Source of the DNA: Gracilimonas sp.
Lineage (GTDB): Bacteria; Bacteroidota; Rhodothermia; Balneolales; Balneolaceae
Reading direction: 5' to 3'
DNA length: 64,000 nucleotides
NCBI RefSeq assembly: GCF_040218225.1
Contig: NZ_JAVJQO010000004.1
Location: 558,001 to 622,000 of the forward strand
A program made the translations under genes and the position numbers. Positions 1,329-3,857 of the stretch are shown piece after piece. How positions within the stretch are numbered: the stretch's first letter is position 1; each line of letters starts with the position of its first letter. The notes under the pieces were generated by a model. It made no database searches. It was not told the origin of the DNA and was given only the letters and a program-made list of their open reading frames with translations.

Positions 1329-1414
1329 TTGTCATTCCGCACTTGATGCGGAATCTTCATAAAAAGGCAACCCAAATATGTATAAAGATTCCGGCTCAGA
1401 GGCCGGAATGACAA
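1329..1414. repeat. BIME-like paired palindromic repeat
   Basis: The 86-bp intergenic unit has outer inverted ends TTGTCATTCCG and CGGAATGACAA. Each half folds on itself: one around the loop acttgat, the other around tcaga. Two hairpins in opposite orientation inside one larger inverted repeat is the architecture of REP/BIME elements. It lies between the lipoprotein stop and smpB and could act as a transcription attenuator. A diverged copy lies at 3896-3984. Confidence 0.6.
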
Positions 1415-1429
1415 TAAGAGGGAAGTTAT

Positions 1430-1903
1430 ATGTCAGATAAGAAAACATCACCAACCATTCAAAATCGAAAGGCTCGCCACGATTATAACATCGAGGAGAC
1501 CTACGAAGCCGGTTTGGTTCTGAAAGGAACCGAGGTGAAATCGTTACGTCAGGGTAAAGCCAGCTTTGCAGATACTTTCGCATATATCCAAAATGGTGAA
1601 GTGTATTTGCGGGACATGTACATCAAGCCCTATGAACACGGCTCGTATTACAATCACGATGAAACCCGCCCCAGAAAATTACTGCTTAACAAAAGGGAAA
1701 TAAGAGAGCTTGAAAAAGCAACGGAACAAAAAGGCTATACCATTGTTCCGCTAAAGCTTTACTTCAAAAAGGGAAATGCCAAGGTGCTGATCGGTATTGC
1801 CAGAGGTAAAAAGCAGTACGATAAGAGAGATTCCATCAAAGAGAAAGATGTGAAACGCCAGATTGAGCGCAACGTGAAGGGGAATTACAAGATTAATATG
1901 TAG
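1430..1903 (+). CDS. smpB: SsrA-binding protein SmpB
   Basis: SmpB binds tmRNA and brings it to stalled ribosomes for trans-translation. The 157-aa protein is full length. It has the N-terminal NRKARHDYNIEETYEAG segment, the core GTEVKSLRQGKAS, the VPLKLYFKKGNAKV strand, and the basic tail typical of SmpB that inserts into the empty mRNA channel. The tmRNA gene itself is not visible in this window. The gene is followed directly by a convergent AT-rich insert. Confidence 0.97.
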   Translation: MSDKKTSPTIQNRKARHDYNIEETYEAGLVLKGTEVKSLRQGKASFADTFAYIQNGEVYLRDMYIKPYEHGSYYNHDETRPRKLLLNKREIRELEKATEQKGYTIVPLKLYFKKGNAKVLIGIARGKKQYDKRDSIKEKDVKRQIERNVKGNYKINM

Positions 1904-1907
1904 AAAG

Positions 1908-2090
1908 TTACTTAGTAGCTTCTTTGTTTTTTTCTTTCCACTTCTTTAATTCAGATTCTACATAATCCATGTGATTCTTAGCTAAATCTTCACCAACTTT
2001 CTTTGGGGCTTTAAAGTTCATACTACTTTTCCGTTTATATGTATCAAAATTGAAATTTTTGGAAAAGTCTATTGTTAGTAAATCTTTCAT
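1908..2090 (-). CDS. Hypothetical 60-aa basic protein, downstream partner of the Ntn-hydrolase-like gene
   Basis: This short lysine-rich ORF begins 33 bp after the stop of the Ntn-hydrolase-like gene, on the same strand, and ends 4 bp from the convergent smpB stop. It has an ATG start and no clear Shine-Dalgarno site, like most genes here. The C-terminal half is predicted helical and charged (around SELKKWKEK). It contains no recognisable domain. Position and base composition shared with the upstream gene suggest both arrived together. It could be a substrate, regulator or unrelated peptide. Confidence 0.5.
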   Translation of the reverse strand: MKDLLTIDFSKNFNFDTYKRKSSMNFKAPKKVGEDLAKNHMDYVESELKKWKEKNKEATK

Positions 2091-2123
2091 AAGACTGAAT
2101 TTAATAGAATTATTTATATCAAT

Positions 2124-3413
2124 TTAATCTTTTTTTCTGTAATAATTATTAAAAAAATGATGATTTAATTTTGGATCAAAATAATGTTTACGCTTTATCC
2201 AAATAAATCCATCACCTTTTGTTATTACAGCAACATCTACGGGGCCTCCTACCGTTTCAAGCTCATCTATTGACACTTTTCGTTTAAAGGAGGTGATATT
2301 TACTAAAGACAGTGCCATTTCAGCCAGCTCATCTAGAGGTAAATTATCAAGATTGCTTATTATAGGTTGAACAAACTTCTCATTAGTGAATTCTTCTAAG
2401 TTTTGTCTTAAGTCTTCTTTTAAGCTTTTACTGATTTTAGATATTTGCTTAGTAAGGCTTTTCTTTTTACTTGTTTCAATATCTGGTAAAGAGTCTAAAA
2501 TTTTTGAAGGGTATTCATTGATAATATCTTCTATATATTCACCAAAGAAGTTCATAAAAGCGGGGTCGATTCCTTCAATAAATCGATTAACCATTTCACT
2601 TTGAGCAAAAGGAATAATTGTGGCTAAACCCCTATTATCAGTTTCTTTAAATAATATATATTTTAGTTTTCCATCATAAAGCGCGTCAATTTTATATGAT
2701 GTAATTGATGGGAAGTACTCTTCTTCTCCAAAGCCTGCAAATACAACACCAGTGTAATTTGTCATATGCTTACAAATAACTTCAAATGTTACATGCTTAA
2801 TAAGGTCTAATTTCTTTTTTGATAGCTTAATTTTCACTTCTGCACGCTCTAAGCTCACCTCTATCAATTTGGGAATGGCCTTTTCATCCAGCAAAATATC
2901 ACTTGGTTTTAAGTCACAAATCCGGTCATTTTCTTTTAATATTTTTTTTGCTTCCTCAAAAAAGTTCATAAAAGCATCTTCAACATCACTTTGTTCGACT
3001 GTGTCACTCTCTGACTTAGAGTAAATCAACTCAAGCATATGGTTTCGAGCATTAGCGCTTAAATTAGTTGCAGTATTTATAAATGTAGTGGCTATAAAAT
3101 CAGCCCTTTCCTGTTCACTTAGAATCTGTTTCTGAATATTTCTAAGCCAGTTTAAAAAGTGCTCTGAGCAACTTTTAACTGTATCAAAGCTTTTATCACC
3201 AATATCATTACGGTAGGATTTTATTATTACCTCCCATGGTATATTCATGAATTGCGCATTATTGAAAATCATTATACCAATAGGATGGTACTTTGAAATG
3301 GTAAATAATTTATTCTCACTGCTATATATTTTACCTGAACCCCCAATAGTCACAGCGCTATCAGCAGCAAGTGCCACTGCTTTTCTGTTCATTACTGCAA
3401 TTTCCGCCGTCAT
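2124..3413 (-). CDS. Proteasome-like Ntn-hydrolase family protein, function unknown
   Basis: The 429-aa protein opens with MTAEIAVMNRKAVALAADS. This matches the mature N-terminus of 20S proteasome beta subunits: Thr directly after the initiator Met, then VALAADS, which places Asp at mature position 17, and Lys at mature position 34 (SENKLF), close to the proteasome Lys33. Removal of Met would expose Thr as an N-terminal nucleophile without a propeptide. It is twice the length of HslV or a beta subunit. The C-terminal 250 residues are helical and charged with no known domain. The gene is AT-rich relative to its neighbours and sits between smpB and rnpB with a 60-aa follower. The catalytic role is inferred from the N-terminal pattern only. 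Confidence 0.6.
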   Translation of the reverse strand: MTAEIAVMNRKAVALAADSAVTIGGSGKIYSSENKLFTISKYHPIGIMIFNNAQFMNIPWEVIIKSYRNDIGDKSFDTVKSCSEHFLNWLRNIQKQILSEQERADFIATTFINTATNLSANARNHMLELIYSKSESDTVEQSDVEDAFMNFFEEAKKILKENDRICDLKPSDILLDEKAIPKLIEVSLERAEVKIKLSKKKLDLIKHVTFEVICKHMTNYTGVVFAGFGEEEYFPSITSYKIDALYDGKLKYILFKETDNRGLATIIPFAQSEMVNRFIEGIDPAFMNFFGEYIEDIINEYPSKILDSLPDIETSKKKSLTKQISKISKSLKEDLRQNLEEFTNEKFVQPIISNLDNLPLDELAEMALSLVNITSFKRKVSIDELETVGGPVDVAVITKGDGFIWIKRKHYFDPKLNHHFFNNYYRKKD

Positions 3414-3451
3414 AATACCCTCTTTTTAGAGGTAAGTAATTGAATTAATTT

Positions 3452-3490
3452 GAAAAAACAAAACCCCGCTCTCAGCTAAGAGCGGGGTTT
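3452..3490 (-). terminator. Rho-independent terminator of rnpB
   Basis: A GC-rich stem (CCCCGCTCT pairing with AGAGCGGGG) is followed on the minus strand by a T-rich tract. It lies about 10 nt past the 3' end of RNase P RNA. Read on the plus strand it could also stop antisense transcripts. Confidence 0.85.
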
Positions 3491-3500
3491 TCATATAAAG

Positions 3501-3857
3501 TCAACAGGAAAGCCTGTAAGCCGGATTCTGTCGAGGGTAATCATTTGTCTGTCGCGTTCTACCCGATGGCGTCACGACAAGTGGCGTATACCATCTGCAT
3601 GAACTTGCACCCCGCGAGGTTTACACTGCTCCCGACCTCACGGTACGGGACGGTGAGCTCTTACCTCACCTTTTCACCCTTACCTCAAACAAGTTGAGGC
3701 GGTCTGTTTTCTGTTGCACTATCTGTCATCCCGGCATTCCTGCGGGGAAGCCTCCCCTTCGTCGGCTGAACCGAATCGGGGAGCACGGTACTTGTTGGTG
3801 TCCGGACTTTCCTCCCGGCACATAAATGTGCCAGGCGATTACCTGGCTTTCCTGTCG
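3501..3857 (-). ncRNA. rnpB: RNase P RNA, bacterial type A
   Basis: RNase P RNA is the ribozyme that matures tRNA 5' ends. On the minus strand the conserved P4 5' strand GAGGAAAGTCCGGAC, the segment ACAGAAAACAGACCGCC, the GGTAAGGGTGAAAAGGTG block and the 3' segment ending in AATCCGGCTTACAGGC are all present in order. The ends pair as P1 (GACAGGAAAGCC with GGCTTTCCTGTT). Length is about 357 nt, normal for type A. Open frames across this region on both strands are shadows of the RNA. Ends are placed from P1 and may be off by a few bases. Confidence 0.95.

Follow-up and report, generated by a model that had tools for sequence, protein, structure and literature searches.

A mobile proteasome-beta-like hydrolase and its small basic follower in a variable slot between smpB and rnpB of Gracilimonas

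Introduction

What does a proteasome-like enzyme of 429 amino acids do between smpB and rnpB, with a 60-aa protein encoded directly behind it? The question is raised by a 64,000-nt stretch of a Gracilimonas sp. genome (hereafter the window; positions count from its first letter). A preliminary description, made from the letters of the window, had taken the pair for a new self-activating hydrolase with a small protein as possible substrate or inhibitor. Proteasome homologues with long insertions have been described by Fuchs, Alva and Lupas (2021; PMC8665760), who reported no informative gene context for them. One of their families is PMI-4 (Proteasome homolog with Multiple Insertions 4), and our search of open-access papers found no functional study of it or of a phage-borne proteasome homologue.

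Table 1. Features of the smpB-rnpB region in the window and segments of the hydrolase
Feature	Position	Strand	Remarks
smpB, 157-aa ORF	1430..1903	+	Flank, outside the module
Follower, 60-aa basic protein	1908..2090	-	Net charge +5; 33 nt past the hydrolase stop codon
Proteasome-beta-like Ntn hydrolase, 429-aa ORF	2124..3413	-	phrog_5990, probably PMI-4
Hydrolase, first core half	residues 1-92		Contains Thr2, Asp18 and Lys35
Hydrolase, helical insertion 1	residues 93-217		Boundaries approximate
Hydrolase, core	residues 218-282
Hydrolase, helical insertion 2	residues 283-356		Boundaries approximate
Hydrolase, core	residues 357-429		Contains ETVGGPVDVAVITKGDGFIWIKRKHYF
Intrinsic terminator of rnpB	3460..3491	-	Also at the rnpB end in related genomes without the pair
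rnpB, RNase P RNA class A	3501..3854	-	RF00010, E 7.9e-71; flank, outside the module

Results

Both ORFs were recovered on the minus strand between smpB and rnpB (Table 1). The pair is AT-rich, as described before, with 31% GC in a region of about 42% (28-35% over the pair vs 40-45% outside). The start of the hydrolase gene, which has the orientation of rnpB, is 47 nt past the rnpB terminator; on the other side, the follower and the convergent smpB ORF end 4 nt apart. Related genomes without the pair have the terminator too, which therefore bounds a variable interval on the rnpB side. Comparison of related genomes showed that the contents of this interval differ among species of the same genus: a dioxygenase-like gene (G001), a 424-aa membrane protein (G002 and G009), a short segment containing a single small ORF (G005) or an AT-rich two-gene insert (G007) whose ORFs encode 137 aa and at least 281 aa, the longer one histidine-kinase-like in appearance. 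At the same site, a second genus, represented by a Balneola MAG (G035), carries an enzyme of 59% identity and a follower of its own. The interval (window 1904-3500 and loci L114, L115, L118, L120, L122 and L124) is a variable slot, and the hydrolase-follower pair is cargo in it. No att-like repeats were found around the pair.

The flanking rnpB gene itself varies in two related species (L115 286-400 and L118 793-897), where about 100 extra nt occur at one place (query 159-172). They fall where the rnpB of the window has a short GTCATCCCGGCATTCCTGCGGG element, and a similar element is seen at window 1331-1415.

Matches to the enzyme were found in the phage protein families of PHROGs v4, where phrog_5990 aligns from end to end (residues 1-424 of 429 with 1-427 of 427, E 1.6e-115). 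This library entry, of unknown function, gives neither a function nor a fold. Pfam, NCBIfam and PADLOC returned nothing significant for either window protein, and neither matched the defence models of PADLOC 2.0. We collected 100 relatives from phages, plasmids, genomes and IMG/VR, of which 62 representatives remain at a pairwise identity below 80%. The viral loci were gathered with C-terminal patterns and the remaining relatives by whole-protein search, so that the viral scan does not build in N-terminal conservation.

The proteasome-type Thr/Asp/Lys set that had been read from the single protein is kept throughout these 62 representatives. The nucleophile follows directly after the start (Thr2 in 61, Ser in one), and Asp18 and Lys35, the equivalents of Asp17 and Lys33, are present in all of them. 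At the position of the oxyanion Gly47, alignments read Gly in the family consensus and Asn51 in the window protein, and Asn, Asp and Ser also occur. A profile of 49 sequences gave the Thermoplasma acidophilum proteasome beta subunit as first PDB match (whole-sequence E 0.0035). Two collinear stretches carry this match, each weak alone: one runs from Thr1 to Lys33 and the other is a GGxIDVAVI..DG segment, in which GGMIDVAVITRKDG aligns with VGGPIDVAVISKGDG. The pN/pS of the enzyme is 0.20.

Autocleavage, which the preliminary description implied by calling the enzyme self-activating, is unlikely. The ORF begins MTAEIAVMNRKAVALAADS, and the open frame extends just four codons above the ATG, leaving no room for a propeptide. 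No in-frame upstream start exists in 46 of the 62 representatives, so that in most relatives removal of Met alone would give Thr1 directly. In one relative (L135, G562:C53:109-1365) a single TGA interrupts a frame of otherwise full length, a case of either a pseudogene or recoding.

The fold is predicted to be that of a proteasome beta subunit. The AlphaFold model (pLDDT 88.4, pTM 0.85) consists of a beta core with two helical insertions. Along the chain, strands and H1/H2 come first, followed by the large helical insertion 1 (about residues 93-217), more core strands and H3, then by insertion 2 (about 283-356), and finally by H4 and the closing strands. Helices of the insertions lie at residues 100-215, after H60-91, and at 314-355, between H284-307 and H360-380. 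All 50 matches listed by Foldseek against the PDB were 20S proteasome or Anbu chains (best E 1.7e-4), with a TM-score to the target of 0.44-0.57 and a high rmsd because of the insertions; the best viral match was a phage "proteasome beta type-2 subunit". The model thus has the beta-sandwich core flanked by H1-H4, and together with the conserved Thr2, Asp18 and Lys35 it bears out the assignment as a proteasome-like Ntn hydrolase. The lack of an ATPase partner adjacent to the hydrolase in the window likewise holds.

Compared with HslV, Anbu and BPH, the enzyme has the same Thr1-Asp17-Lys33 type of site and a beta-type fold, but it is about twice as long, has two large helical insertions, lacks a propeptide and an adjacent ATPase, and is borne on mobile genetic elements (MGEs). 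Its own genome encodes an ordinary HslV, which gave no match in a profile comparison with the hydrolase family. The statement that it is longer than all bacterial proteasome relatives is correct for HslV, Anbu and BPH but is not news, as homologues with long insertions are described in PMC8665760. Among these, it is most likely PMI-4, judged by architecture and distribution rather than by sequence-to-sequence comparison. Both have a proteasome-like core with one insertion after H1/H2, at the pore loop, and another between H3 and H4, neither has a propeptide or a known AAA+ partner, and both occur in phages, Bacteroidetes, Firmicutes, Proteobacteria and PVC; in Table 1 of PMC8665760, PMI-4 is the only family of the multiple-insertion group among those with phage members. 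The enzyme thus belongs to a family that is known but uncharacterised (phrog_5990, most likely PMI-4) rather than to the new class of hydrolase it was taken for. To the published description of PMI-4 our data add that the gene is mobile, that a small follower accompanies it and that core and insertions diverge to different degrees.

Connectase is also a proteasome homologue outside the barrel proteases and has an insertion, but the insertion lies elsewhere and Connectase is archaeal. We know of no small follower of Connectase.

The follower is a genuine companion of the enzyme. An ATG/GTG ORF of 30-90 codons lies behind or overlaps the hydrolase gene in all 56 testable representatives (at least 300 nt downstream; follower start from -90 to +60 nt relative to the hydrolase stop codon), compared with 81 of 244 (33%) other long ORFs of the same loci under the same rule. 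With a stricter start rule (-8 to +60) the counts were 51 of 56 vs 34.5% of controls and 25% after shuffling. The typical follower has about 54 aa, and the median net charge is +4. A pN/pS of 0.36 (18 disjoint pairs) indicates that the followers are coding and under purifying selection. They split into several families, e.g. ..ELREWQKxFNPS.. and ..SQPKSVKDFF..NFF.., and had weak matches or none in PHROGs. The follower seems undescribed and looks universal, and the conserved two-gene arrangement seems to be the new part of this system. A motif common to followers outside the two largest groups was sought by an EM search, which scored barely above shuffled sequences and gave unconvincing sites, and we claim no common fold. 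No convincing fusions of enzyme and follower genes were found.

Homology between followers is detectable only where the cores of the two representatives share at least 57% identity (median 79%). Within the enzyme, mean identity between representatives is 14% in the insertions and 53% in the core. Two hypervariable elements that diverge together beside a conserved core suggest that insertions and follower may meet.

The pair is mobile, residing mostly in prophages and their satellites and also on plasmids and in defence islands. An alignment-based scan of IMG/VR identified 165 relatives, where a first viral scan with the single protein had given none. Streptococcus prophages and satellites carry relatives, in the latter at the satellite end. 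Prophage immunity and lysis regions with repressor, Q, holin and endolysin genes are usual sites of cargo, and PHROG scans of 142 neighbours at the IMG/VR loci most often gave CI-type repressors, Q-like antiterminators, endolysins and holins. The relative in a Providencia phage (H9) lies between Q and holin, that of Javan85 behind the endolysin and that of H12 between head and tail genes. A stretch of 2.36 kb that includes the pair is common to two genera, G003 and G054, at 94% identity, and within it the hydrolase genes agree in 98.6% of their nucleotides; the SmpB proteins of these genera have 86% and 66% identity, respectively, to the window's SmpB. The pair stands alone in the window, in the Balneola MAG and in G1119. 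Full-length matches occurred in 5 of 394 genomes of the phylum and in 3 of 398 and 6 of 294 genomes of two other phyla, which is about 1-2% of the genomes sampled, the genome of the window and the seed genomes included.

The survey of defence islands that had been proposed found defence neighbours for several relatives but too few loci for a statistical claim. Loci outside prophages neighbor AbiEi/AbiEii with a type IIG enzyme (G003), a STAND NTPase (PDC-S60) with a PIN protein (G054) or a complete type I R-M operon (G445). In a dense island of G1214 (L142 784-7674), the hydrolase follows PDC-S05, HsdS-like, SIR2-like and HerA-like proteins, the last two named by reading their sequences. Defence neighbours were seen at four of six non-prophage loci and in one of six control regions of the same genomes, a trend that is no more than suggestive and not significant; the sole control region with defence genes shares its contig with one of the test loci.

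Discussion

We favor, tentatively and at somewhat less than even chance, the explanation that the pair is a mobile two-gene module serving MGE-borne defence or exclusion, in which the follower controls the enzyme or is acted on by it. Its basis, as read from sequence, is the Thr/Asp/Lys set, the beta-type core, the two hypervariable insertions, the follower in every testable relative and the mobility; prophage cargo can have many other roles. Methionine aminopeptidase would expose Thr1. The insertions would keep the enzyme out of degradative rings, because they sit where Fuchs et al. (PMC8665760) expect clashes, and may serve as a recognition surface, with proteolysis that would be specific rather than bulk. 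The small partner may bind this surface and either keep the enzyme latent or be the piece acted on. A phage-derived trigger would then alter the control by the partner. By cutting or transpeptidating a specific target through Thr1, the enzyme would shield the resident prophage or the host from other phages, as exclusion or abortive defence. It may be, at a somewhat lower probability again, that mobile elements widely carry an undescribed two-gene system of immunity or exclusion, with the proteasome-beta-type protease as effector and the hypervariable insertions plus the mini-protein as sensor or lock.

A fixed order of two genes, a small, basic and fast-evolving partner and a distribution on MGEs are also what a toxin-antitoxin or addiction module would have, in which the hydrolase cleaves an essential host protein, a short-lived follower neutralises it and a prophage, satellite or plasmid is stabilised. 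Hypervariable partner and insertions that diverge together fit this as well. However, type II systems usually place the antitoxin first, no TA model matched and no DNA-binding domain was recognised in the follower, and we regard addiction as unlikely, with perhaps a chance of one in several. Slightly less probable still is an enzyme in the service of the phage, which would process or remove a phage or host protein in lysogeny or lysis (repressor turnover, counter-defence and lysis timing are candidate roles) with the follower as substrate or adaptor. The CI-type repressor, Q, holin and endolysin neighbours in many prophages (Providencia H9, Javan85), and the H12 site between head and tail genes, agree with such a role, but the pair is also found on plasmids, in chromosomal islands without phage structural genes and as the lone insert described here. 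Being kept outside prophages, it seems useful without a phage.

The architecture invites comparison with Connectase, a non-ring proteasome homologue whose insertion sets specificity (PMC8665760), and the enzyme might be a protein ligase that forms a covalent intermediate at Thr1 and passes a peptide on to a target, with the follower as a possible donor; rhizobial relatives adjoin two different multiubiquitin/ThiF operons. We consider this improbable, given that the Connectase insertion is at S3/S4 and those found here follow H1/H2 and H3, that the motif search found no conserved recognition motif in the followers and that the ubiquitin linkage was seen only in rhizobia. A role in the general, stand-alone breakdown of damaged proteins, which has been proposed for BPH and the uncapped 20S, would suit an intact catalytic set with no ATPase partner adjacent. 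It is very improbable for an enzyme that is present in about 1-2% of sampled genomes, mobile and hypervariable outside its core, has insertions at ring contacts and coexists with an ordinary HslV.

If the defence or exclusion module is the right explanation, it could add proteasome-type proteolysis to the tools of phage-phage and phage-host conflict. With a constant partner, and with core and recognition parts that diverge at different rates on mobile elements, an orphan enzyme family becomes a testable two-component system, and the partner gives a first handle on the role of the enzyme.

On Rhizobium plasmids (L028, L029 and L031) and a Mesorhizobium plasmid (L024), relatives adjoin operons of multiubiquitin and ThiF proteins. 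A search for the Multi_ubiq family in the genome of the window, run without a positive control, gave no match. The rhizobial operons have two different layouts, whose Ub proteins share only about 33-38% identity, and the Rhizobium loci also carry DUF6527 and a ClpP-like protease. A proteasome-like enzyme beside a bacterial ubiquitin-like system merits a study of its own.
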